Shown: in pieces, positions 4,649 to 50,900 of the stretch | How positions within the stretch are numbered: the stretch's first letter is position 1 | Layout: the number at the start of each line of letters is the position of its first letter | Source of the DNA: Zygnema cylindricum | Lineage: Eukaryota > Streptophyta > Zygnematophyceae > Zygnematales > Zygnemataceae | DNA: 64,000 nucleotides | Direction of reading: 5' to 3' | Assembly (NCBI GenBank): GCA_037447655.1 | Contig: JBBHKE010003421.1 | Location: forward strand, 1 to 64,000 | Translations under genes and position numbers: made by a program | The notes under the pieces: model-generated | Database searches by the model: none | Seen by the model: the letters and a program-made list of their open reading frames with translations, nothing else | What the model was told of the DNA's origin: nothing

Positions 4649-6300
4649 CTAGTCAATCTTTAATTTCAGACCACACTTATCCTTGCAAAAAATTAGCTTA
4701 AGGGAAGGCACAGGTTTGGTCATCATATCTGCTACCATCTCACTATCTGGTCGATACTCTAAACTAATTATTTTGTTTTCTACTTTCTCTCTAACTAAGC
4801 TTAGTCTAATGTCCATGTGTTTGGCTTTAAAATGATGTTTAGGATTGGAAGAAATAGCGATTGCTGCCTGATTATCACAAAAAAAAATCTGCACACCACT
4901 CTTAAGGTGACCAAGCTCACCAAGCAAACACTTGACCCACATCAATTCTTTTACAACAGAGCAAGAGGCTATATACTCTGCCTCCATGGTGGACTGAGCA
5001 ATAACTTTTTGTTGTTTGCTACTCCAATAGCAAGCCCCATCACCCACGTATAATACATATCTAGAAGTGCATCTCCTCATCGGAGCATCACCATAATTGG
5101 CATCACTCCAAGTAGTGATATCAGTATTCTCCCCACCCAAATGCAACCATAGATCGTTAGTTCCTATCAAATATCTAAGGACTCTATTAGCTGCCTCCTA
5201 ATCCCTCTTAGTGGGAGCATTTCGACTTCTACTCAGCACTCCTACAGTTGCAACTAAATCCGGCTAGGTACAATTCATAAAATAGATTAGACTTCCCACT
5301 ACTTGTCTGTAAGGAATAGTCTGCATGAACTTCTGTTCTTCAGGAGATAATTCCTCGTCTAAGACTATGACTCCTTCGTCCTCACTCCCCTCACTTATGT
5401 TCTTCAACTCCATTGGAGTTGTACAACTATTAGCTTTATCCATTTGAAATTTTTCAAGCATGTTCCCTATTGCTTCCTTTTGAGTCAATCTTATATTTTT
5501 CTTTTTCGGTATCTCTCTACTTGAATTCACAAAATATAATTTGCTTCCCGCATATCCTTCATTTCAAATCTCCCCTTAAGATCCGTTTTCAGTTTATTAA
5601 TTTTTTCCATTGATTTACTTAAAACATGCAAATCATCAACATAAATTGCAATAAATATAAAACCTTCCTCATCTTCGAAAACATAGATTGAGTGATCTGA
5701 GCTGATCCGGATATATCCCAGATCAGTAAGAAACTCATCAAGCTTCTTATTCCACTGTCGAGGCGCCTGTTTCAAACCATAAAGAGATTTAATCAGCCAG
5801 CATACCTTACTCTCCTCTCCTTCCTCCACAAACCCTTCGGGTTGTCGCATGAAGATCTCCTCTTCCAATTTTCCATGCAAAAAGGCTGTCTTGATGTCCA
5901 TCTGGTGCACTTCCATGTCTTCCGCTGCAGCAAGGCTGAGAAGTATGCAGACGGAGGGAAATGTGACCACCGGGGAAAAGGTTTCCTCGTAGTCAATTCC
6001 CTCCTTTTGTGTAAATCCCTTTGCCACTATTCGGGCCTTGTAGCGCTCGATTGTGTTATCTGGGTTCAATTTTAATTTGAAAACCCACTTACAACCGATT
6101 GGTTATCTGTTAGGTGGACAATCCACCAGCTCCCAAGTATCGGCTGCCATAATTGAGGCCATCTCCTCATTGATGGCTATCTTCCACCGGTTTTTCTTTC
6201 TGGACAAGTCATTGCCTCTCCATAAGTTTGAGGTTCATCTAGATGAGATAGTTTAGTTACCTTGTTATTAACCTGTTTTTCTTGCAGTCTTTTGCTACTT
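4649..6300 (-). pseudogene. Element A reverse transcriptase and RNase H
   Basis: The RT reads from about 6230 down: a WELV-type segment, 'KARIVAKGFTQ', 'QMDIKTAFLHG', '[12 protein letters not shown]' and the catalytic YVDD at 5632-5643 are all present. It continues to the 'TTPME' region near 5420 and the 'VGSLIYFMNCT' block near 5270. The RNase H/connection part (5170-4649) has 'DANYGD', 'EAEYIA' and the 'HMDIRL' helix near its end. Stops and frame changes occur near 5527 and 5264 and between 5264 and 5170. These enzymes copy the element RNA into DNA. The segment is not intact. Confidence 0.9.
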
Positions 6301-7022: not shown

Positions 7023-7973
7023 TTAGACCAAAGAACAACATCCTTCATCCATAACAACTAGATGTTTTACTAAGATTATATCTTCCCTTTTTAGATCGTA
7101 AACTCTATATCCTTTAACATCCTCATCATATCCTAATAAGTATCCCAGTTTTCCTTTAGGATCTAGTTTCCAATTAGAGCGAACTGTATCTAGACTGAAT
7201 ACTTCACTGCCGAATACCTTTGAGTGAGATATGTCTGGTTTCTGGACAGTCCATCTCTCATAAGGTGTATGATATTTTATAGCTGAAGTAAGAACTCTAT
7301 TTTTGAGGTAATTAGCACAGTTCATTACTTCGGCCCAAAACCTTTTTCCTATCTTCTTGTCGACAATATACTTCTCGCACTATCACTTAGTGTCCTATTT
7401 AATCTTTCAGCTACCCCATTCTGTTCTAGGTTTTCTAGAACTGTCTTTTTGTGTTGGACTCCATCTTCCCTCAGAAAATCCTCAAACTGGTTAGAAGTAT
7501 ACTCTCCACCATTGTCACTCCTTGCTCTATTGATTGGAGTTTCATGGAGTTTTTCGCTCCATTCTTTATATTGTCAAAAACAATCCTGAGCTTTTGACTT
7601 GTTTTTTCAAAAAATACAACGTGGAATACCGAGACCAATCATCACTGATAGTCATCAAAAATCTCTTTCCCCCCGGTGAGGGCACTTGGGCTGGTCCGCA
7701 AATATTTGTGTGTACTAAATCTAGAATATTTTCTCCCCTATAGGTGGCTGTTTTGGGAAAGGGCAATCTGTGTGCTTTACCTTGAGCACATCCACTACAA
7801 TCACTTAGATTCTCACTCTCACTGAACTGAATTCCTTCTACCACTCCTATCGTTTTCCCCTCTCTTAGCTTATCTATATTCACATGCCCAGGCCTCTTAT
7901 GCCACATCATTATATCATGAACACTAGCATAATAAATTTTCTTCTTTTCATTGCTTAAAATCAGCCTAAACAT
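7023..7973 (-). pseudogene. Element A integrase
   Basis: The region 7973-7566 encodes the zinc-binding pre-integrase part (WHKR...GH...C-x2-C) followed by the core start 'LDLVHTNICGP'. Across 7560-7430 the core can be read in another frame as 'SDNGGEYTSNQFEDFL' with a downstream acidic residue and an 'NGVAERLNRT' motif, so the catalytic D, D and E region was present. 7325-7023 holds the C-terminal part with 'TPYERWTVQKPDISHSKVFG'. Frame breaks are near 7566 and 7380. The function would be DNA integration. It is inactive as sequenced. Confidence 0.85.
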
Positions 7974-7976
7974 CCC

Positions 7977-15935: not shown

Positions 15936-18900
15936 CTAACTACCACCGGTTTTGGGGGGAAATAAATCGTCAATGGCTTCATTTAATACCTTGATCATAA
16001 GTAATTGCAGCTCAGAAGCTCTCTGCAGCCCATGCTCCAAAAGACAAGTCAATCCAACAGCCAACCAAAACAAGCATTTACAAAACCTCACAGACTGCAA
16101 CGCTTCACAACAATACTTTGTAAATGATGCACTCACCCCCTCGGGAGGATCAGTAATATGAGGGGGGAAGTCGCCTTCAGCAATCCATGTTCGTTTATCC
16201 CATATCCAAATGGTAGTTTTGTTGTCATCCTGTAGAGATACAAGTCTTGTAAATGTTAGGAAATATTGTGTTTTCCTCACATTCGGCAGTAATGCCATGC
16301 ATTGCGATTGCTTCAGAACAGACCACATAAAATGGAGAAGGGAAGGACAATCAGAAAAGATGCCAAAAAAGACATAAACAATTAGTTTTTTCCATCACAA
16401 ACGCGATGGATGTGGTCACTTTCATGGTATTATCTATCTATCTGATGAAGTTCAAGCTCTCACCTCAAAAAGACTTGCCCATGTGTAGTGAATGATGCCG
16501 GCATCGCCAAGAATGCTATCCGCAGGAGGCTGCATTCCATTCTCATATCTCATAAGTTACTTCCTTACTGCTTCACATTTTGGCTAATCCTTGCACCTGA
16601 AACCAGCAAACAATACTAGCAAACACACAACTCAAAACTCTCTAGACAAATCTGAAAGATATATTAACATGCTAGTATTGAATAAGAGACAGCTGTAAAG
16701 GTTACCCAATAGGTTATGTAAAATTTGTCTCACCTGAACCATGATGGCTTCTGGGACCAAAGGCAAGTCAATGGGCACTCTAGCAAGAGCTGTGGCGATG
16801 GAAAAAGCGTACATCTCGCGAACCCACCTGGAAACCATCAAAATTGGACTCAGCCCGACTTTGCTACACCATAAACATGGCCGAGATTTAAAATGGAAAG
16901 AAAGATCAAAGTAAAGCAAATGTCTCTGATCTTCACAAATAAAGGTAAAAGACATTAGACTAGGAGCTCACCCAAGCTTCTCTTTTGCCTCTGCGTCCCT
17001 TTCAATTTGTCCCGTCACATCCACCCATAATGGAACGATCCTTCTGTAAAGCAGACAAGGCCGTTTGATGAACATCCGACAGGATTGGAGAAGGAAGGAA
17101 CGGAGAAGAACTGTAAGGAACACAATATTGACTAAGCAAGAATCTTAATAGTGATTGGTTTACCAGACCAATTATCTCTTCCTACTTACTTAAGATCTTC
17201 AGTTCGGGCCAAAACTGGTGCATTGCCTGTCTGAGGAATATCTTTAAGGTCGCCTGGATAAAACCTGAACCACCGAAGAATATGGGTCAAGAAGATGAGC
17301 AAGTCATAGTTGTTGAAAGAAATTGAGAAGGAACATTTAATAGATGTAACAATTCTAGCACCTTGACAAGCACAAAACAGTTACTAAGCTGTGCAGAAAG
17401 ACAGCATGATTCAATCCCTTTAATCTCACTGAACGTGCAACCATTAAGCTCTGATTCCATTTAGCAAATCATTTATCCTCCCATTATCCAGACTCGGCCC
17501 TATGGGACACTATAACTCCATAAGTAGTTGCTACCTTCTTCCTGATCAATTTCTCAACGGGCAAAAAGGGGCATCAGTTGTGTACAATACATGTAAAAAA
17601 CAAAGTCTCCATATAACTCATGCTGAAAAGGCACATCATGTGATACACAATCCTTAAATGCAGAAACTTTCCAAGTTGGGAATGTCCACCTGCCTTTTCA
17701 TGACATCCACAATAGTTGGATATGTTGGAATTATATACCCGAATGGAAAACCAAGAGCATTGCCACTAGCTGGAATACTGAAGGGTCTGCTCTGGCACAG
17801 TCCCAGATAAATGTTAAGAGTTCCAACACAATCGAATACAAATATGTGTGAGATTCAAACATATAACCATGTTTAGTCAAGTAAGTAACATAAGGAATTC
17901 AGGCATCTCTGTGTCAACTGCCTCAACACACAAGGAACAACTTTGGCTAGTCCTGAGGCTATATCTGGTGTACTACCATAAGATTTGAAAGGCTAAAATT
18001 GGAAAAGGTGCTCAATAGATGCAGTGGAAGGCGTTTATGGTCATGTTTGACAGGGGCGAAGAGTCATTAGCATGACTAATAACTGCCATCTACAAAGAGC
18101 ATAAGAAAAAAGGCCAAGCACCACACTTACTTCACAAAAAGGTAGTCCGTTTCAATCATGAAGATCCAATCACCCTTAACATCCCCTGAATCCAGCCACT
18201 GCTTGATAGCTGAGGGACGGCTGGCTACTGGATAATCGCACCTGCCCATGCCCAGGGTGGTTATGATTGGTCAAGCTAAGATTCACTTCATCCATAATTT
18301 TTTCACCATCCCACATCTAAACATCCTGACCATCAGCTTGTTCTCTTAAAACATCAATAAGGGGGGTCCCTTACCAGACATCGCAAGCTGGATCATGTGG
18401 TTCAACTCGAATCTGCGCAAACAGTCCCCCTCCCTTTCTTCAATACCCATTTACTAGCAGACGTTCAAAACAACGCTTGTAACACCTCGTAAAGTGCGAG
18501 TTCTGATGACCTGCCGAATCCTAAAATTTTAGCAAAAGTATCCAGTTCAAATCGCCTTAAGACCAGTCCCAACTGGGGAAGAACCCAGCTCTAAGACCTG
18601 TTTCGGTTTTGGCAAATGAAATTTTCAACGCCAATTAAAATTTTCCAAGTAAAGAAGAAGGCCAGAGAAAGCATCACCGTGGGAATCTCAGCCATCAATT
18701 CATCATCCTTAGATCGATGTAGCACTCTCGTAAAATATTTCATGTCGTTCCCAGGAAGGTTTATCACCTGGATTGCCCAGAATACACAACTGCACATAAA
18801 TCATCACGTATATGCCAGGGTAAGCGGAAATTCCCCAGCAAAAAGTTATGGTTGAGGCCCACCTTCTTCCAAGTATAGTACATGATACGCGTCTGCCAAT

Positions 18901-21900
18901 TCATGTACGGATTTCCGTTGCTGGTAACCATCACGTGAATACCTTTCCCTTCAGTTTGCTGCTTTTTCATCTCAGCCTCACCCTGTAACTGCAATTCCTG
19001 TGCACTTCCTTGGGTCTTCTTTTGCCGATCTTCAATCATAATGCGTGTAATCTCATCAGGTGTCTTTCCCATCTCCTCCAGCTCAGCAACAGTGTACTTA
19101 GGGAGGTTCATGATAGCCTCGTTTATTTTTGTGATCAAAACTTTTTGTGCTTCACTTGCCCTCTGCAAGGTTTAACAATTGTGACCTCAGAATAGTCAGC
19201 AAGTCTCAAGCACAGGCATCTCCAATTTCAAAATATATTACAGCATTACCCAGCAATTTGTAAATGACTCTCGCTCTTCAAGTCACGAAAGTACACAGCG
19301 AATCGCTATTAGAGTTAAAAAAAATTGCGTGGGATTTAACAAGATCTATTCATTCTAGTTCGCCTACGAATGACGTGGCCGGTTTTGAACCGTTTGAAGT
19401 ATTGGCAGTAAGAAGAAAGCAGCGTTATTAACGCTAGTTTGTGGTCAGCAGGCCAAAAAGACCGGCACCAAAATAATGTTGTTAAAGCTAATAGCGATTA
19501 ACGGTGTACCCCAGACGTCATTGCCAGAAATCAAGCCTGCTGTGACTTCAGAAAATTATCGACATAGGAAGGCAGAAAGGCTCGATCCATGCATGTAACA
19601 TGCCCGTTGGCTCAACCCTTCATTGGGTGAAGGCACGCTCAAAAAGTTAACACCGCTCCAAAAGAGTCGGGGATACCCCCCTTGCAAGAATACACCAATA
19701 TCTGAGGGTCACCGAATAAAAAACAAGGAGAAATCTGGCCAGAATGGATTTTGAATTAGGGAAGCATAAGCCATACAGAAGCTGGAGGTTCTGGAATAGG
19801 ATCAGGTAGGCCAGGGTCTGTGAACTTGCGCTTGTCAAACTCCCACACTTGTACTCCTTGATCATCCTGTTGTCCAAAAGCCCAACTCTGCATTGTCAAT
19901 CTCATGGACAAACACATCGGCCCTAATTAAATAATTCTAATGGGCAACTCTTAAGGAAGCAACCTTGCAATCTGCTTTTGTGACAATCTTCTGCTAAACA
20001 AAACAAAGATAAAGGTCAAAAAAAGCGGACAAGTGGAATTGGAGTGATTCAGTCCCGATAGCACATTAACGCTTATTGGCATACAATCAGCAGCTATAGA
20101 GCAAAATCAGAAATCAAATTCCACCTCCATTGACCTTCATAAAGAGTATGACACGACCAAATACTGCAGTGCAGTAAATATGCTTTGCTTGTCCAAAAGA
20201 AACATAATACTACTGTCATCACCTTAATAACACTTCCCCACGTGTAGTGCAGAATAGCCGCCTCTCCCACAACAGCATCCGCCGGTGGCTGATCCTCCCG
20301 CCCAGTTGATACACAAATTAGATGGGCCACGAGATGTTTCTCCATTACAACACTTTGCCATTACATTTTAGGAGGTTACAGAAGCATCAACCTCAGAACA
20401 TCTGTCCTAATAGAGAAGATGTACACAACTTGCAAGTATGGTGAATTAAAATGCTAGGAGTATTGTGGGACCTGGCTCATGATGGCTCCTGGCATCTCTG
20501 GCAAGTCAATTGGCATTTTAGCCTTTGCTGTGGCAATTGAGAATGAGTACATCTCACGAACCCATCTGCTTACCCAACGCCCAAGGTTGGTTAATAATGC
20601 CGCACTTCATTTAATCGAATAAGAACCACAATCATATAGAGTACAAACCAAAAATTATGCAGACCCAAACTGAAAGTAGGCAAGCTCGTCCCTGACATCA
20701 GATGAGACCAATGGATGCCAGAGACAAAAACCTCATTACGTAAATGCCAGATTATCTGCATTTAGAGAAACGGTATGCCTACCTATACCCTCATAATTAC
20801 ACCGGCAACAAATGATGAAACGTCCAGCCAGACAACAACCTTTGTACTCCAAATCTGCACGAAGTCTACCAGTACCAGCCTGCATTTCAGAACCAGCTAA
20901 GTTTCACATCTGCTCTCCTTCAAAAAAGTAACCGGCTTTTTATGGTGAATGACAAATGGTTGACAAAAAATATCACTGCCTGATCCATCCTACTTAGTCT
21001 GGTCCACACTCATTGCTACTGATGTATGTCATAAAATACGACCGCTCCCTATACTTTATGTCGTATTTAATTTCCAGTTCGACTAGAAAGAGTTAATAAC
21101 GATCATAACTTACGGAATTGATGAAAAAAGGGTACAAATTGTACCAGAAATTGGATGTAGGCCGATTAATTTCAAGAAAACCGCCTACATGGACATGAAG
21201 ATTTTTTGGAAAGCCAAAGGTATCGCAGTTTGAAATTACATCGAACAGTTGATACGACGGCAAAAAAAATCACACATCATGTTCCCAATCCGTAAGTAAA
21301 TTTTCAAAGTAAATCCGAAGTTCATATGCATTTTAAAATTGATCGAACATAATCCTGTAGATGCGATTACGTGACTTCGGACTCTGTTGACGATAGAACA
21401 TAGAATAGGATACAGACTTTGTAACGTTAAAAGAAGTGTATTCAAATACTTTTCGAAAATGGCTACTTATACTTGATGTCCACACAAAACTATATGTGGA
21501 CCAGAGCTACTAATTCTAAAATGTATCGGCCCAAAGCGTCCATGTAGGACCCCTTCTATCGCATACATGATTTTGCATCCATATTAATGGTTCGGAACAG
21601 ACTAATGTTAGTTTCCAGAAAAACATCTTTACAGCCCTTGGCAAAAGCTAGCATATGAATCTAAATCAGAACATATAGCCCTCACAATTTTGAACTTCCT
21701 GGGTGAAAACAGCAACTGTCATCTCACATGGTTCTAAAATTCTTATGCTTCAACACCACACTAGGCTCACACAAGACATTACAGGCAAAAATAGAGGGAT
21801 AACATAGAAGTGTTAAAGATATTGTATACAAAAAAAACAAGTACTACAATGGCATCCCTGGATAAGTTTGGTGCAACCACATCCTCAGCCCACATATTTT

Positions 21901-24900
21901 AACAGGGAATGTGAGGCCCAAATACAGGTAATCATGAAGCAGATAACAAAGAAACATGGTTAGCCATACAAATGTTATGTCCATATCACACTCATCCATC
22001 ATGCTATCAACGTGTCGTCAAAACATTACCATGAAATCGTGAAAGAAATCGTATGCTACAATGTTAGATGTACCACATTCAGCAGCATGGTGGTTTTAAG
22101 TGTGAGAACGATTTGTTCAACAGTTGCAGCTCCCAAGGCAGTGTGCCCTTACACATCCCTAGGAAAGCTTCAAATGCATGCTCCATAAGCAGAGAAAAAA
22201 TGAAGGTCTACTAGGTGCCTGTCTATCTCTGCATTCTGTCATGGGTGTTTCACTGACTCTCCAGGGTGATCAAGGAAAGTGACATACCCAAGCACATTTT
22301 TGGAATCCTCGTCCGCCTCAATCTTGGCTGTTAAATCCACCCAAATTGGAATCACCCTCCTGCGACCAGCCTCAAATAACTGCAGGTGAGGATTCATTGT
22401 CATGAATGAGTTTCAAATACCCGAAGTTACAAGAAAAACAAGCAGAAAACTGAACAACGCCTGCCATATTAGCTGATAAGAAGCATTTTCAAAAATCAGT
22501 CTGGGTGAAAAGCAGTTTTTGCCTCCAGGGTTTTCGAACAAAAGGAAGGCAAAGAGAACAAATTTACGTTTATACTCAACTTTCTAAACAAATGCAGGTC
22601 GCCACATGTTACTGCCAGACCTCATGTGAACAAAACGCTGCAAGTCTTTCTGGAAAATGTGAACTATTGTGAGATAACCATGGGTTCAAACTACTGCTCC
22701 CTGCTTCCCCTGGGCAACTAACCTGATATCTTCAAGAGGTGCCAAAACAGGTGCAATATCCTCCAAGGGGGCATCATAATACCTGCAAAAATATTGTCTC
22801 CCATTCAGTTCTCTTTCCAGCAAACTGGTTTGAGCAAAGTAACACACAATTTTCGGCGGCAAATCAAAAGCCACTTTTTGTTCCCGATCCTACGAAAAGC
22901 TGATGTGACTGAATACCACATACAAGCACAATTTGAAGTGTGTAGTTTGTCATGACCTGCACCTATAAAAAAGCTGACAAAAAAGTTGACACAGTAGACC
23001 AGCATTAAAACGAGCTGAAGGAGATGATAAACAGCGAGGAGGCTATCATACTTCCGCATAATACGTGCAACGTCATGATACGTCGGTGATATGTATCCAA
23101 AGGGAAAGCCAATAGCTTTGCCACTCACCGGAATGCTCAAAGGTCTGCTCAGCCCCCATCAAATCCCCCATGTCAACTGAAGTGAAGGTCACATTCTACG
23201 CTGAAGCATGCGACAACCGGCAATCGCTCAAGAAAGCATTCACTTTCCTTCACAGAAAGGACACTAGCTGACGCTTTAACTAGTGCTAGTAACTTCTGCT
23301 ATAAGGGCCAAGGACGTACTTAACAAAAACATAGTCCGTCTCAATCATCAGCACCCAGTCACCCTTTGGATCTCCAGATTCCAACCACTGGAGAATAGCA
23401 TACGGTCGACTTGCCACTGGATACTCGCACCTGGCCAGAAATAACGCCAAAGCTATGTCGACAATAAGCATGAGGGCAGATAAGCAAATTCATAGAAAGA
23501 TACAGGCACAAATTGCCATGGAATGCGCTTTCAGACATGTATATCCAATGAATGAGAGAAATGGTGCCTCTGACAGAAAGAAAAAGTGCTTTACCATGTG
23601 TCACATGATGGATCCAACGGTTTAACCCGGACCTGCACCCAAAGAGTGAACAAAACCATCAAAAATACACTCCTTTTTCATCCTCAGTGACACATAAGTA
23701 TAAGAATAAACAATCCCCTACGGTACAGTGCTGAGAAGAAAATGTTGCATGAATCAAAGAAAACAAAAAGGTGTGAAAGATTGCATTTTAAGCAGTGCTA
23801 GAAGGTCTACCGTTGGGATTTCCAGCATCATAGTGTCATCCGTTTGGCGATGCAGAACACGTGTGAAGTGTTTCAAATCACTCCCAGGTTGTTTGGCCAC
23901 CTGTGATCTCAAAAAGAATAATCGACTTAAAAGTGCATGAAACAAAACCAACTGTCTGACTCACAGCTTCAGGTAGCTTCATTATAACATAATTTTATTC
24001 TCCTTAACACATTTAATGCTGTCGTAATCCAGTAGATAACTGCACTATTCCCTGTCAAAACTTAATCGTAGGAACTAAGAGCAACAAGCATCTAGCACAC
24101 TCAATACTGCATGATTGTTACAGCAAGTGTTAGTCTAGGTGATAAGCCCTCATGTTGACAGCTTCGACAAGACCCCAACCCACGGCTAAGTATCCGCAAA
24201 TGTACAGACGAAATACAATAGGTTGTCTCCCAGCATGATCTAGCTCAATGGGCTATTAAAAAGCAGCCAGGAATTGCATATCGGCACATATGGCTCTCAT
24301 GGTTATTACATTTCAAGTTACAAATCCGGGAAGAAATGGGAAAGAGAAATGCGGCTTCTGAAACAAGGCAATTGTGAGAATTTAACTGCAAAGCATCTGT
24401 AGCAGACTCAGCCGTACAGAAAACCTTATCAAGGAAAACATAGAAATTTCATCCACTTGACTGTAAAACCGGATAAGTTAGCCATGAACCCCTTCCATGC
24501 TGTACCAAACCCAGCATCATGAAATAATCTGACCCCACCTGACACAGTTTCAGCTTCAGTCCTTTAATACTAGCTGCAGGTTACGAAATGTTCAGCCAAG
24601 AAAATTGTGTATTTTGAACTTACCGGGCTTAGATCTCAGCCAACGGCTACCAAAACACACACCTGGAGGTAAGTATAGTACATTATACGAGATTGCCAAT
24701 TCATATAAGGTGATCCGTTGCTTGTGAGTATCGCGTGGATTCCCTTGCTAACAGAAGGCTTCACTGCCGCTTTCAACCGTTGCTGCAATTCCAATGCATT
24801 TCTTGCGTCATTCTGTCCTTGCGACTCCACGTCATGGGCGGTTAAGGCTTCGCTGTCACCAAACACACGCTGCAGCACCAGCAACCCCTCTTAAATTGAC

Positions 24901-26541
24901 TACCTCCTCAAATCACTGTTGTCATTTAAGCAGGCACCTCCAATGTGTTTTTACCACTCTAATCCACTCCACCCCATTCCAATCGATTCCATTCCACTCC
25001 ATCCCTCTCCACTCTCTCCTCTACCCTCTCCACTCTCTCCATTCTCTCCACTCCCCAATCCCTCCATTTTCTCCAATTTCTCCACTCTCGTCACTCCCCG
25101 CTCTCCACTGCCCGGTCCCACTCCCCGGTCCCACTCCCCGGTCCCACTCCCCGCTCCGGCTCCCCACTCCTCGCTCCCACTCCCCACTCCCCCCACTTTC
25201 CACTTCCCACTTCCCACTCCCCTCTCTCCACTCGCCACTTCTCCACTCCATTCTCCACTCTCCACTCTCCATTTTCTACTCCTCACTCCCCCACTCTCCA
25301 CTCTCCCCTTTCCACTCCGTTCTCCACCCCACTCTCCACTCCCCACTCTCCATTCTTCACTCATCTCCACTCCCCACTCTCCACTCTTCACTCATCTCCA
25401 CTCCCCACTCTCCACTCCACTCCATTCCCCATTCCAATCTCTACTCCACCCCACTCTCCACCACTCTCGCTCTCCACTCCACTCTCCACTCTCCACTAAA
25501 ATCCACTCCACTCTCTCCTCCACTCTCCATTCCACTCCACTAACTCATGCTCCACTCCACTCCACCCCACCGCACCCCACCCCACTCCACCCCACTCCAC
25601 TAAAAATATTATAACTGATAATGAGCCAACTTACAGAGGCCCCACTGACAGATGCAAGAAGCTGACATTCGAAAAATAAACAACTACGTTACAATAATCT
25701 TAAGTCACTTCCTGAGGAAGCCTATCAACAACACAGTCGAGGCACTAAAATTTCAGGTGTATTCAGGAAGGCGACTTGACAAAGAGGATTAATGGCGCTG
25801 CTCAAATTAACAAATACATAGGACAAAGGGAACCCTGAGAAAACCCCTCACTGCAAATCACTTCGGTCAATACTTTCAGCTTTAAAGCTTAGAACGGCCA
25901 AGCCCTGCCAATGCCCACTCTGTTAAAAATGCCAGACTTCTCCAAGGGGGGAATCAGTGCATAAAAACTCGGCAGGCAGAGACCTATCTTTAAATAAGTA
26001 TGTTTGCTCATCACATGGAAGACCGTGACAGGTGGGCTACCCCACGCTTATGCTTCCTTGTCAATAGTCGTTAAGGAAAACAGCAGGGAGCTCGCTTAGA
26101 ATCTGGATTATCAACTATATCGGGACTGTTAACAAAACACATATTCATAAAACACACACCTTTGTAACGTGAGCAGACTGACGTGCCTCTTTATCCAGCC
26201 TGCATGCAAAGACCAGGCAGGGAGGAAAAAATGTTATTAGAATGCGTAGCTGCAGAAAGGTACGTGTAAAAGATTGGTTGGCAGCAACCAAATTAATTTC
26301 CGGAAGTGTATCACTCGGCCAGCAGCAATCCCTTGTTATTTCAAATTGGAACGAGATATAATTACAGTTTTATCCGGATCTGTAAACAATGCAAGGTACA
26401 AAGGTAACCAGCATCCTCTCACGTGATCTCATAATGTGAGCGAGGCCGTAGACCGATGCTGATGATGCCAAGCCCAACAACCAGGATAACGATTGATCGA
26501 CAGGTTGGTCCGTGCTGTACCTGCCGCTTAATGGACCTCAT
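15936..26541 (-). CDS. Two-domain HPAT-like glycosyltransferase, type II membrane protein (23 exons)
   Basis: Minus-strand exons: 26541-26423, 26199-26160, 24869-24663, 23900-23811, 23632-23595, 23430-23320, 23144-23052, 22782-22723, 22359-22288, 20565-20472, 20288-20223, 19866-19777, 19162-18863, 18767-18678, 18412-18375, 18241-18131, 17786-17694, 17264-17190, 17043-16972, 16827-16734, 16529-16464, 16229-16137, 16022-15936. They join in frame to 2199 nt (732 residues plus stop). Residues 1-16 are basic and 17-31 ('IVILVVGLGIISIGL') form a short membrane anchor, so a Golgi type II enzyme is likely. Domain 1 (about 97-383) and domain 2 (about 435-725) each show SNG-x-PYMNWQ-x-RIMYYT, FTRVLHR, CxYPVASRP, MIETDY, GFPFGY, WVREMY and HYTW. 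These resemble plant hydroxyproline O-arabinosyltransferases (GT95) and algal relatives; plant HPATs have EPDH where this has ETDY. Residues 384-434 are a charged linker. Donor and acceptor are unproven. Exons 1-2 rest on splice logic only. Confidence 0.88.
17692..17694 (-). other. GC donor splice site in the HPAT-like gene
   Basis: Exon 17 ends at 17694 and the intron begins GCAGGT (GC at 17693-17692). The paralogous exon 7 has the same length (93 nt) and phase with a GT donor at the homologous point. The alternative GT five bases downstream breaks the frame. The acceptor before 17264 is a normal AG. Confidence 0.8.
19294..19506. mobile_element. MITE (TA-flanked) in intron 12 of the HPAT-like gene
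   Basis: The terminal inverted repeats begin CACAGCGAATCGCTATTAGA and, on the other strand, CACCGTTAATCGCTATTAGC, and TA lies on both sides (19292-19293, 19507-19508). It is 213 bp without coding capacity and is related to copies at 59115-59325, 40544-40707 and 46625-46789. Confidence 0.8.
24952..25606. repeat. CCACTC-type low-complexity array in intron 2 of the HPAT-like gene
   Basis: About 650 bases are irregular iterations of CCACTC, CCACTCTCC and CCACTCCCC. On the transcribed strand this is GAGTGG/GGGGAGTGG, purine- and G-rich. All six frames give low-complexity translations that are not genes. Unit order is irregular, unlike a clean satellite. Confidence 0.9.
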
Positions 26542-28538: not shown

Positions 28539-30362
28539 GTGGCTATTTTGGCCGCCATGGGGAGAAAGAAGAAAAATACCCCTTCTCCTATGATGTCTTC
28601 TTCTTCTACGTTGATTCCTCAACCTCCGGATCCGGATCCTCCGGATCCAACCGAATCTGAATCATCGTCGTATCCGGAAGTAGAAACTCCATTTGCTTTC
28701 ACCGGCAAAACTTTTGAGGAAGTTGTTGCGATTGATCCGTTCGGACAAAATAAGGAGAATGAGAGGAAAAAGAAGGAGGGAGATGACGCGACGAAAGATC
28801 GTCTTCAAAAACTGATGGATGGTCTTTTCCGATATGTTGATCAACGGATCTCGGAGACGAACCGTGTCACGAGACCTTCATTTTTCGGAGATCCCATTCC
28901 AACACAAAACGTCGTTGATACGGAAGGAGATGAGGAGGAGATGAGGGAATTTATTCGAAAGGGGAAACTTCCCATCGATGACGATTCCGATCTTGATTAT
29001 TGTAGTGAATGGGACGAGCAAGTTGAATTTATCCTTTAATGGGACGAATCATCAATCGTGGAAGAAATATATCAAAGGTCAATTTAAATTAAAACGCCTT
29101 TGGAAGGTGGTAAAAGGGGTGGACAAGATGCCTACCTCGGATCGGAGAGCTTATCGGGTGTGGACAAAGAAAAATCATTCCGCCGTCGGCGGTTTATTTC
29201 AATCATGTAGCACTACAATTCACGATTTATTTCTCACCCGAAGATTCGCCCATGATTGTTAGGTAGCCTTTGAAAATCATTTTGAGAAGAGTCTTCAAAA
29301 CAAGGGGCAACATATTTATACCGATTATACATCCTTCAAAGTGAAACAAAATGAATCGATCGATGAGGCCGCAAAGAGATTTAATGTTATTATTGAGAAC
29401 TCGCAAATATGGGGAAATTTATTGAAAAGAATAATAAGGCATCGGTCTTCACCCATGCCTTACTGGAGAAAATGATATACTTAATGGACATTCTCTTATC
29501 GAGGGATTCAAACACCTAGGACTCGATCATTACATTCCTTAAATCAACCGAGAGGAATCGCCCGAGCTCATCGAGAAGAACCAAACCGACCAATTCCCTC
29601 AACGCGACAACACCAGAAACGCCCGATCTAAATTATTTTCGGGGAAAAGGAGGAAAAAGAGGGGGAAATCCGAGAGGAAGAGGGGGAAGAGGACACGAAA
29701 GGGTTGGGAGATCTCCTTCTCAGCCCGTGTATTCATATCTGACCAATATTGCCTGTTTTCAATGCAACAAACTTGGTCATATGGCGGCTTCTTGCCCGGA
29801 TAAGGAGCGCCAATGTCGCTTTTGCGAGAAATGGGGTCATATAAGCCCCCAATGTTATTCGAAGGCCGAAAATGGAGGCGGCGGTGGAAGAGGAGATCGC
29901 GGCGGTAGAGGAGACGGCGGCGGCCGATACGCTGGGCGCGGCAACGGTCGTCTTGGCGGCCGCGGAGGCCGCCATGGAAGAGGAGGAGGACATTTTATGG
30001 GCGACGATCAATTTGAAGGAGAAAAAGAAGGCGCGCAGATATTTTTGGTCCTTAACTTGTCGCTTGATTTGATGGCAGGTGCTACACATCAAGAAAAAGA
30101 GTGGATTATTGATTCTGGCGCTTCACACCACGTTTGTAATGACGCTTCACTCTTTGACAATTTTGGCGAACTCACGGTACCAAAACGAATCACTGTCGCA
30201 GGTGGACAAGTGAATTTGATAAGTACAATGGGTACTGTATGTTTTGATTTACCGATTTTGGAAGCAACTGGCTTTGAAAAAGTGACGCAAACCCAACTAA
30301 CAAATGTTTTGTACTTACCTGAAGATTCAGTGAACCTTCTCAGTGTACCGCAGATACAATGA
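28539..30362 (+). pseudogene. gag and protease of the Copia element
   Basis: The frame from 28539 (or the ATG at 28557) encodes a basic, proline- and serine-rich N-terminus and an acidic centre. A frameshift near 29020 leads into 'LSFNGTNHQSWKKYI', the typical Copia gag motif. After further breaks, 29727-30362 is open and encodes two CCHC knuckles in tandem (CFQCNKLGHMAASC and CRFCEKWGHISPQC), a Gly/Arg-rich stretch, and the protease with intact D-S-G ('WIIDSGASHHVCND' near 30100). Confidence 0.9.
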
Positions 30363-47004: not shown

Positions 47005-47987
47005 TGAAAACATTATTCCCCTACATCGGATCGAGGCCTGCCGATGCGTTTACGAAACGTCATCAGTGCGCAGATACATCCGCTACCGATGCAACATGAT
47101 ACGCTTCCTACAAACTGACAGTAAATAACACCAAGCCAAGCTCTACCAACGACCTCCCTTGGAAACGGGTAGTCCACAAACAGGCACATGCGAAAGCTGT
47201 GTGTGGACCAGATAATCAGTGTGTAGTCGGCTGAAAATCCCACGCCTAAAATAGTACTGATATGTTGTAAGGTACGGGAAAACCATGATGATTGATGAAC
47301 GATGAGCCGTACGGCCTACGTAGATAGACGCGGCTATCCAAGGAAAGGCCACAACGTCGAGATTTCTGAAGCCAAAAAGTACCGTAGAACGGGACAACGC
47401 GCTAATCACAGTATGCACATATGTATAGAATCAGTACCCTATTGTCCAGATCCGCCTAGCCACACGAGGCTACCGGGTATCCACGTCCACCCCGGTCATC
47501 CAAGAAATCGATTACAGAATTAGTGTTTCTTACGGACTGCTCCAGCGAATCGGTGGAGTTTAATTTGGTCTACAAATGTGAACGGATGCTGTTACCCGCA
47601 AACTGTACGGAATTGAAATTTCGCAAAATGCTTACAACCTATCCATTGACGCTGACGTCGGTGACCGAAAACAGTACTTGGCAAGTTCCGACCTTCAGAA
47701 CCTGTCTGCGAAATCGAGCTTCCCATGCCTTCTCCTCTGAACGTGACATCCGTGGTCGCTCCAGTATATACCTGTAAACAGGCAGATTTGACATTTGAAA
47801 ATTTACAACTTCTCAGCAGCTGCTGTACTTCAGCTGCTTGTATAGAAATCTGTAGTTCCGAACTCTACAGTAGTCTTGGAAGCATTGTACAGAATATAGG
47901 CAAAAAAAATTAGTCATCTCGACTCTGTTACTAAATACAATTATTTAGTATTTTTATTTTCATCTCTAGTCTCACCTGACCAGAAAC
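47005..47987 (+). promoter_or_regulatory. Upstream region of the glycine decarboxylase P gene
   Basis: About 980 bp, more GC-rich than the transposon to its left. It must include promoter and 5' UTR, but no TATA box or known light-response element can be claimed with confidence. Short frames here have no recognised domain. Confidence 0.4.
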
Positions 47988-50900
47988 ATGGCGGGTGGAC
48001 GTCCTGTGTCTCGGCTTCTATGGTCAGCTAATCTTATCAGACGATCTGTTGCCAAACAGAATAATGCCATGTCATCTCCACACGTGTCAGCTCCTGCAGT
48101 GAACTCTACTGGAACTCCAGGAACTGGTTCTATGTCAGTTATGTCAAAGTCTTTCAGTTTTGGACAGATGAGGTCAAGCTCAGGTATTGCGAGTGTTGGA
48201 ATGATTCGCAGCCTTCCGATGAGCTCAGCATTATTGCGACAGGCAAGAACAATCTCAGTGGAAGCTTTGAGACCGAGTGACACTTTTCCTCGAAGACATA
48301 ACAGTTTGACTCCCGAAGAATCTCAGAAAATGGCTGAAATCTGTGGATTTGAAAGCATGGATGCTTTGATTGAAGCAACAGTTCCTAAGTCTATTAAGAG
48401 ACCACCAATGAACTTAGGAAAGTACGACAAAGGCTTCACAGAGAGTGAGATGTTGTCTGATTTCAAGGCCATGGCGTCTAAAAACAAGGTGTTGAAATCA
48501 TTTATCGGGATGGGTTATTATAACACTTTCGTTCCTCCTCCGATTCTTCGCAACATTATGGAAAATCCAGGCTGGTATACTCAGTATACTCCTTACCAAG
48601 CTGAAATCGCTCAGGGAAGGTTGGAGTCTCTCCTCAATTTCCAAACTTTGGTCACTGACTTAACCGGTATGCCTATGTCAAATGCTTCTCTTTTGGATGA
48701 GGGAACTGCTGCGGCGGAAGCCATGGCTATGTGTTCCTCTATCTCTCGAGGCAAGAAAAAGACTTTCCTTATTGCCTCTAACTGCCATCCTCAAACCATT
48801 GGCGTGTGTGAGACAAGAGCAGATGGTCTTGGTATGAAAGTGGCTGTAGGAGATTTCAAATCCTTTGATTTGAGTGACAAGGATATTTGTGGAGTGCTCT
48901 TGCAGTATCCTGCTACAGACGGTTCGATTGAGAATTACGAAGAATTTATCAAGACGGCACATTCTCATGGAGTGAAGGTTGTTGTGGCGACCGACTTATT
49001 AGCTCTTACTGTGTTGAAACCACCTGGTGAAATTGGAGCTGATATGGTGGTGGGATCGGCTCAGCGTTTCGGTGTTCCAATGGGGTATGGTGGCCCACAT
49101 GCGGCTTTCCTGGCAACTTCACAAGAGTACAAGAGACTTATGCCTGGACGTATTATTGGAGTCAGTGTTGATTCCCAAGGGAAGCCCGCCCTTCGTATGG
49201 CAATGCAAACTAGAGAGCAACACATTCGACGAGATAAAGCCACAAGCAATATTTGCACTGCTCAGGTCTGTCTCTCTTGCCTTTGTCTTGCCTTGTTTAC
49301 TCTTTTTTGTCACCATTTTTTTTTTTTAATGTTCTGTTTTCTATGGAATATGCCTAAGTTTCATGTGGTTTTTAGCAACACATTCGACGAGATGAAGGCC
49401 ACCAGCAGTACTTGCATTGTCTGCATTTTTCTTTACCCTTTTGGTTTCTAATGACTAATGGTTCAATGAACGGTCCTCAATGTTTCTACTTAGTATGACT
49501 TGTGATTTTTATGTCTAACAGAGTCTTCTGCTGTTTCACGCTGATGATGGACGGATATTACTTTTTTGCTGTCTTCCATATTGACTTGTGCCTGGTTGTT
49601 TCCGGTTCGCTTTTGGAATTTGTGGACTTGTCAAGATGCCGACTTTTGTGCATTCTACATTTTCCTCCATTCTGACAAATAGTATCTGAACCTAGTAATT
49701 GTTTTGACTTTTCTACCTTTGATTGGCTTTTAAAATACGAATGGCATTTGAACTCATAAGTTTTTTGAAGTTTTTAACTTTTTTTCCGTAGTATCTTCAA
49801 TTTACCTCCGTTTTGACAAATAGCGTTCTGTCTATTGCAGGCTCTCTTGGCCAATATGGCCGCAATGTATGCTGTTTACCATGGTCCGGCTGGTTTGAAG
49901 GAGATTGCTGAGAGAGCCCATGGTCTTGCAGCTGTATTTGCAAATGGCGTTGGGAAATTGGGTGTTGGCGAGGTTGCGTCAGCGCCCTTTTTTGACACCG
50001 TCAAAGTGGTTGTTCCTGGAAAGGCTAAGGCCGTGGCTGAAGCTGCGGTAAAGGACGGGCTAAACTTGAGAATCGTTGATGATGATACGGTATGTTCTTC
50101 ATTTCTCCCAGCTGTTTGTAGGTGACGTAGGAGTGATTCATTAACTGTAAGTTTAGTGGTTTTTTTCTGATTTTGTTTTCCGCAAATTAGAGAGTGAGGC
50201 ATATCTGTGACCCATACAGACTTTTTAAAGTAACTTGTAGGTGGTTTATTCTGATTTTGTAATTTGTATTGTGTTACGCGCTAGAATATTGTGAACCATT
50301 GTGATGTAAGTGGAAAACCAAATTAATGATGTATCTCTGATTACAGCAGGATACTGTTTCTGCAGGTCTTGTAAGTAGCTAATGCAGTTTGTTTTTTGTT
50401 TTCAACAGATCACCGTTTCATTTGATGAGACTACAAGGTTGTCTGATGTAGACCTCCTCTTCAAGGCGTTTGCCCTCGGGAAGGAGGTAAACACTTGTTA
50501 TTGTAGTCTTGCTGGTTTTCGTCACCTCATGGAACTTCCACAAGACTTTTCTTGGTGGATTTTTGCTCTCTTTTTTCATTGTAGTGCATTCAACCTGGTG
50601 CTAGCTGGTGAAGGTTGGATTGATGTGTGATTGAGTGGTAAATGTAATGCAACTTAATTCTTCATCAGTGAAATTATGTCCTTTCTTATTGTTTTCCTGC
50701 GTGAGCTATAACTTTTGATTAATGGTGCCAGTGCTTTACCAAATTATTGCCCTCCATAGTATCATTACTTTACCCTAAATTATTTCTTGTACTGCTTTTT
50801 CTGGTCTAAATTTGGGACTGTCAAATTGCAGGTGGGCTTTTCTGCTGAAAGCCTTGCCCCAGAGACATCAGCCAAGTTGCCTGCAAGCAGTCTTCGGAAT

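Follow-up and report, generated by a model that had tools for sequence, protein, structure and literature searches.

Two tandem HPAT-type domains encoded by one gene in Zygnema cylindricum and its relatives, and a five-residue loss in the first domain of the Zygnema protein

Does the minus strand of a 64,000-nucleotide stretch of Zygnema cylindricum DNA (assembly GCA_037447655.1, contig JBBHKE010003421.1, positions 1 to 64,000; here called the window) carry one gene with two glycosyltransferase domains between positions 26541 and 15936, or two neighboring genes with one domain each? The first-pass annotation of this locus had proposed a single gene with two HPAT-like domains. When we rebuilt the gene exon by exon, all 23 exons joined in frame, as had been claimed, to give 2199 nucleotides and an uninterrupted reading frame of 732 residues. 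The Pfam profile HPAT (PF23452) matched two stretches of the protein (summing to 445.3 bits versus a cutoff of 23.9; E value of 1.6e-133), and hmmsearch placed domain 1 at residues 96 to 360 and domain 2 at residues 434 to 704. Together with two-domain transcripts in relatives, these results supported the single-gene proposal. The two domains were 60% identical (162 of 269 alignment columns, or 162 of 265 aligned pairs), which replaces the earlier estimate of 75 to 78% for domain blocks. Synonymous divergence (dS) between them was 1.77 and nonsynonymous divergence (dN) was 0.29 (NG86), with synonymous sites near saturation.

The exon ends of the window gene were picked by hand with the finding in view, and the protein P0001, a close homologue, served as an independent check. 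Exon 1 (26423 to 26541) contained the start codon, the conserved N-terminal tail, and, by eye, a hydrophobic segment at about residues 14 to 32, in agreement with the membrane anchor proposed previously. Exon 2 (26160 to 26199) encoded part of the stem, and exon 3 (24663 to 24869) encoded the rest of the stem and the start of domain 1, at about position 24743. Domain 1 occupied part of exon 3 through exon 12 (19777 to 24743), and domain 2 occupied part of exon 13 through exon 22 (16137 to 18943). The C-terminal tail and stop codon were in exon 23 (15936 to 16022). Splice sites were GT-AG in 21 of the 22 introns and GC-AG in intron 17 (17265 to 17693), and the reading frame across this GC-AG intron matched P0001. 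About half of intron 2 was occupied by a long, degenerate tandem repeat of the CCACTC/GGAGTG type (24963 to 25601; Tandem Repeats Finder periods of 5 to 105).

Homologues of the window protein were sought in a search that admitted lengths of about 403 to 1281 residues and scored the 7996 candidates sharing most words. In this search, of a kind that the first-pass annotation had suggested, P0001 to P0004 had both domains and P0005 had pieces of two. In all, two full-length domains were found in 5 of 160 sequences (159 database matches plus the window protein). P0001 (737 residues) shared 90% identity with the query along its whole length, and 662 of the 730 aligned positions were identical. Of the residues in gaps between the two proteins, 1 belonged to the variable stem, 5 to the middle part of exon 8, 1 to the interior of exon 22, and 2 to the region close to the C terminus. 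Within the domains, no exon junction coincided with a gap. P0001 needs 2211 coding bases, and the longest contig had 2577 bases. Because a full-length protein was encoded on a contig of that size, compared to 10.6 kb for the window gene, the contig was almost certainly spliced RNA. P0002 (748 residues) and P0003 (800 residues) were Trinity transcripts, each encoding two domains. Since P0001 to P0003 came from RNA-derived contigs with both domains, single two-domain mRNAs exist in relatives. P0004 (771 residues; SM000072S21174), a genome model with two domains, is presumably from Spirogloea, judging by its SM identifier, and we take P0005 to be from Mesotaenium, based on its Mesen1 identifier. 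The N terminus was conserved across P0001 to P0005, which have the same two-domain architecture as the window protein. The two-domain architecture is shared by zygnematophycean algae, and in P0001 to P0003 it is present on single transcripts.

These data also bear on the idea that two adjacent single-domain genes were wrongly joined. Intron 12 is 614 nucleotides long, and in-frame ATG codons in exon 13 make internal initiation conceivable. However, the linker and the start of domain 2 share one open exon, the RNA-derived contigs P0001, P0002, and P0003 carry two-domain open reading frames, and a domain 2 protein begun in exon 13 would, by eye, be without the N-terminal anchor. We rejected this idea as very improbable.

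How did the second domain arise? The lengths of exons 4 to 12 and exons 14 to 22 were 90/90, 38/38, 111/111, 93/93, 60/75, 72/72, 94/94, 66/66, and 90/93. The paired exons also started in the same phase, and all of these values were exactly those annotated previously. Introns 3 to 12 in domain 1 corresponded one to one with introns 13 to 22 in domain 2 (10 of 10 positions). In the seven of nine exon pairs of equal length, nucleotide identity was 61 to 76%, and the intron sequences of the two gene halves matched only at chance level (best E value of 0.018). Oddities in three homologous gene models also fell at window intron positions: P0004 has extra residues at the position of the exon 7/8 boundary, the P0005 model is without 24 residues equivalent to exon 19, and P0070, a Closterium fragment, runs off near the position of the exon 17/18 boundary. 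For this reason, the results suggest that introns at these positions are common to the window gene, P0004, P0005, and P0070. The public P0005 model (Mesen1 7092) seems to omit parts of both domains, masking its two-domain architecture.

The duplication junction was located in exon 13 (18863 to 19162; 300 nucleotides), which encodes the linker and the start of domain 2. There, sequence resembling the exon 23 tail (RAS opens both exons) continued directly into sequence of the type found in exon 3. Judged from the sequence, the fusion point lies within an exon, unless an intron has since disappeared from it, and the intron positions were inherited exactly. The description of the duplication as intron-exact thus held for the 10 recurring intron positions but not for the junction, which is inside an exon and not at an intron. 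The 5' part of exon 13 (18944 to 19162) encoded a charged, tail-derived linker of 73 residues (361 to 433) by the hmmsearch boundaries. With Pfam's longer domain, the first part of this segment belongs to domain 1 and the linker is about 50 residues, in agreement with the earlier statement that exon 13 holds the end of domain 1, a linker of about 50 residues, and the start of domain 2.

To date the duplication, trees of both domains were built, as the first-pass annotation had proposed. The set of full domains numbered 146, with 19 of the 160 sequences excluded because they were without a full domain. One tree had 41 rows (38 of these 146 domains and 3 partial rows) and the other had 28 rows (25 full domains and the same 3 partial rows). 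Land-plant-type HPATs were represented in the 41-row tree and in the conservation counts by one row, P0136, with the 120 land-plant HPAT matches listed in a separate search left out. The domains 1 of the window protein, P0001, P0002, Spirogloea, and Mesotaenium (C-terminal third only) formed one clade, with support of 94/88 in the 41-row tree. The domains 2 of the same five proteins and the Closterium fragment formed another (96/87). Spirogloea and Mesotaenium belong to different zygnematophycean subclasses, and because each domain clade holds both, the duplication is, on these trees, older than the split of the two sampled subclasses. Thus, the duplication is old and common to relatives. A recent duplication, in which the domains 1 of the window protein and P0001 group with their domains 2, was rejected (approximately unbiased test, p of 4.3e-6; 28-row tree), as was a duplication in Spirogloea only (p of 0.012; 28-row tree). 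A duplication in P0003 only was marginally rejected (p of 0.045). The placement of the group in the Zygnematophyceae is likewise tied to the trees and to the SM, Mesen1, and Chlat1 identifiers.

The closest single-domain proteins were Klebsormidium nitens KFL_001240160 (P0006) and P0007, presumably from Chlorokybus given its Chlat1 identifier, with up to 66% and 59% identity, respectively, to individual domains. P0006 has an N-terminal helix (residues 15 to 66 of its predicted model) and a linker-like C-terminal tail, but a single domain. Its tail resembled the linker that follows domain 1, with a summed score matched by 7 of 5000 shuffles. Because of this resemblance, the linker is probably the old C-terminal tail, or else the Klebsormidium model was cut short. 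P0006 itself may be a pre-duplication form, may have lost a domain, or may be an incomplete gene model.

Are both domains of the window protein likely to be active? Exon 8 (22723 to 22782) is 60 nucleotides long versus 75 nucleotides for its partner, and domain 1 is without five residues. Window domain 1 reads EDI-APVL where domain 1 of P0001 reads EDIPGTGNAPVL; the PGTGN of P0001 is missing between about positions 22755 and 22754. The first-pass annotation had listed the 60/75 lengths correctly but overlooked that a nearly invariant glycine is lost. This glycine was kept by 145 of the 146 full domains, with window domain 1 as the sole row without it, and land-plant-type P0136 has G-N-S-P at this position. 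Conservation in at least 95% of the 136 other domains was seen at 25 columns, of which window domain 2 kept all 25 and window domain 1 kept 24. Domain 1 of P0001 to P0004, unlike that of the window protein, was complete and kept all 25 of these columns, E-x-D and HYT among them. In the P0006 model, the equivalent segment starts a strand (residues 285 to 293) that is followed by a long helix and lies after the E-T-D site. In GT6 and other GT-A enzymes, donor-sugar residues are located in the strand-helix unit that follows the DxD motif. By analogy with GT6-like enzymes, the lost segment may contribute donor-sugar residues in this domain. Window domain 1 may be weak or dead through the loss, while that of P0001 is intact. 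Because the remainder of domain 1 was 96% identical to P0001, above the 93% of domain 2, selection on domain 1 probably persisted until recently. It is possible, although we consider it doubtful, that the five-residue loss is an assembly or allelic artifact and that both sites are active in this alga too. The loss was seen in only 1 of 146 rows and the rest of domain 1 is highly similar to P0001, as such an artifact would predict, but the deletion is exactly in frame and within the exon.

On balance, we favor the interpretation that the gene encodes a Golgi protein with two tethered, putatively hydroxyproline-glycosylating GT-A domains, the first of which is weakened in this alga by the loss. 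The protein would be a type II Golgi glycosyltransferase in which a short N-terminal hydrophobic segment precedes tandem HPAT domains, each with a putative GT-A fold and an E-T-D (E-x-D) site. Each domain would transfer an arabinofuranose-like sugar to hydroxyprolines of secreted wall glycoproteins, and two sites on one anchor would allow more neighboring hydroxyprolines to be modified per encounter. Both predicted sites seem competent in the relatives that were scored; for the window's alga, domain 2 would be the likely catalyst, and a weak or noncatalytic domain 1 may still bind the acceptor. In a predicted protein from Chlorella ohadii (P0140; COHA_002618), an HPAT domain is fused to a prolyl hydroxylase-like 2OG-Fe(II) oxygenase domain; possibly hydroxylation and glycosylation occur on one chain, or the gene model is fused. 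We counted this oxygenase fusion as indirect support for the proposed arabinofuranose transfer to hydroxyproline. Several other HPAT-domain proteins, including P0046, P0055, and P0057, contained a PAN_4 domain (PF14295), which was on the N-terminal side in P0046. A fold search included LARGE1 structure 7zvj among its matches, and a profile search of solved-structure sequences gave two weak matches, both to unrelated membrane proteins (best E value of 0.029).

Two other divisions of labor were considered. The domains could be specialized for consecutive steps, with, for example, domain 1 adding the first sugar and domain 2 adding another sugar or acting on another type of site. Between the window protein and P0002, domains 1 were 77% identical and domains 2 were 77% identical, compared to 61 to 64% across domains, and in P0001, P0002, P0004, and P0005 each domain has its own signature (SQPPAD for domain 1 and VQPPAD for domain 2), which indicates that the domains are stably diverged. 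However, P0003 has SQPPAD in neither domain, the conserved residue set is identical for both domains, and the absence of a nearly invariant residue from window domain 1 is awkward for an essential first step. We judged specialization of this kind to be unlikely. Less likely still is a regulatory or acceptor-binding domain 1 in the whole group, with domain 2 alone catalytic. The missing glycine in window domain 1 fits this proposal, but the complete conserved columns of domain 1 in P0001 to P0004, conservation between the window protein and P0001 at least equal to that of domain 2, and the restriction of the loss to one row argue against it.

Several observations weigh against the interpretation of an old duplication and two tethered sites. 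The transcript evidence comes from relatives and not from the window's own species. Support for the domain 1 and domain 2 clades was below full in the 28-row tree (91/81 and 87/84, respectively), and the clades tested in that tree had already been seen in the 41-row tree. A simple history with two clades does not accommodate P0003: its domain 1 adjoined the domain 2 clade (95/84 with 41 rows and 84/82 with 28 rows) and its domain 2 adjoined Klebsormidium (97/91 and 78/60), and colinear alternatives for P0003 were not rejected (p of 0.33 and 0.36). A grouping of zygnematophycean domains to the exclusion of Klebsormidium and P0003 gave a p of 0.21, and a duplication before or after the Klebsormidium split is compatible with the data. 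A whole-protein model of P0001 (5 rows) had a predicted local distance difference test (pLDDT) score of 43, was discarded, and gives no domain orientation. Finally, land-plant HPATs are distant, and their donor or acceptor may differ. P0136 was without the two cysteines of C-D-x-W-C, and its identity to the algal proteins was 37 to 39%: 39% to P0006 and 37% to P0001, the latter from a mixed alignment of one- and two-domain proteins that appeared to split single-domain rows over both domains.

The land-plant proteins HPAT1-3, RDN, NOD3, and PLENTY (CAZy family GT95, PF23452) have the same Pfam domain, which P0136 matched. They share the positions W-Q-x-R-I-M, E-x-D, G-N-[AS]-P, E-M-Y, Q-P-P, and H-Y-T with the algal domains, and the land-plant type has E-P-D-H where the algal domains have E-T-D-Y. 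At about 360 residues, land-plant HPATs have one domain by length, whereas the window protein has two. The earlier statement that plant HPATs have one domain agreed with the land-plant-type matches, which were 331 to 461 residues long among the 120 listed of 876, but that search admitted only about 202 to 644 residues. The Golgi transferases LARGE1 and EXT1/EXT2 also have two glycosyltransferase domains on one type II anchor. Their two domains belong to separate families and together produce an alternating polymer, whereas both window domains are copies of one domain. GT95 is reported to be related to GT96, the family of the peptidyl-serine alpha-galactosyltransferase SERGT1, and hydroxyproline arabinosylation acts on land-plant extensins and peptide hormones (PMC8012813).

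We found no description of a two-domain or zygnematophycean HPAT in the listed titles or abstract openings of open-licence literature, which is weak evidence of absence. The tandem form seems to be a variant, so far unreported, within a known family, and the proteins are already in public sets. Zygnematophyceae are the algae closest to land plants, and the two-site architecture was unseen among the land-plant proteins listed; the tandem form may point to wall-glycoprotein machinery that differs between land plants and these algae. Kept since before the subclass split, it offers a natural test of whether tethered sites give processivity, and the lesion in domain 1 provides a species pair (the window's alga and the source of P0001) for probing the role of the first domain. 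More tentatively, and with considerable doubt, we suggest that the zygnematophycean ancestor had a hydroxyproline glycosyltransferase with two active sites that worked along hydroxyproline runs and that the first site of the window protein recently became, through the five-residue loss, a noncatalytic acceptor-binding module.

Elsewhere in the window, scans for Rfam families (gathering threshold) and tRNAs yielded no matches. Pieces of retroelements, which we take to be copia-like, were present at 5527 to 6102 and 7566 to 7976 on the minus strand and at 29520 to 30362 on the plus strand (RVT_2, gag_pre-integrs, Pol_BBD, and zinc knuckle). An open stretch at 47970 to 49451 on the plus strand matched the glycine cleavage P-protein profile GDC-P with 503 bits, over profile positions 2 to 331 of 429.
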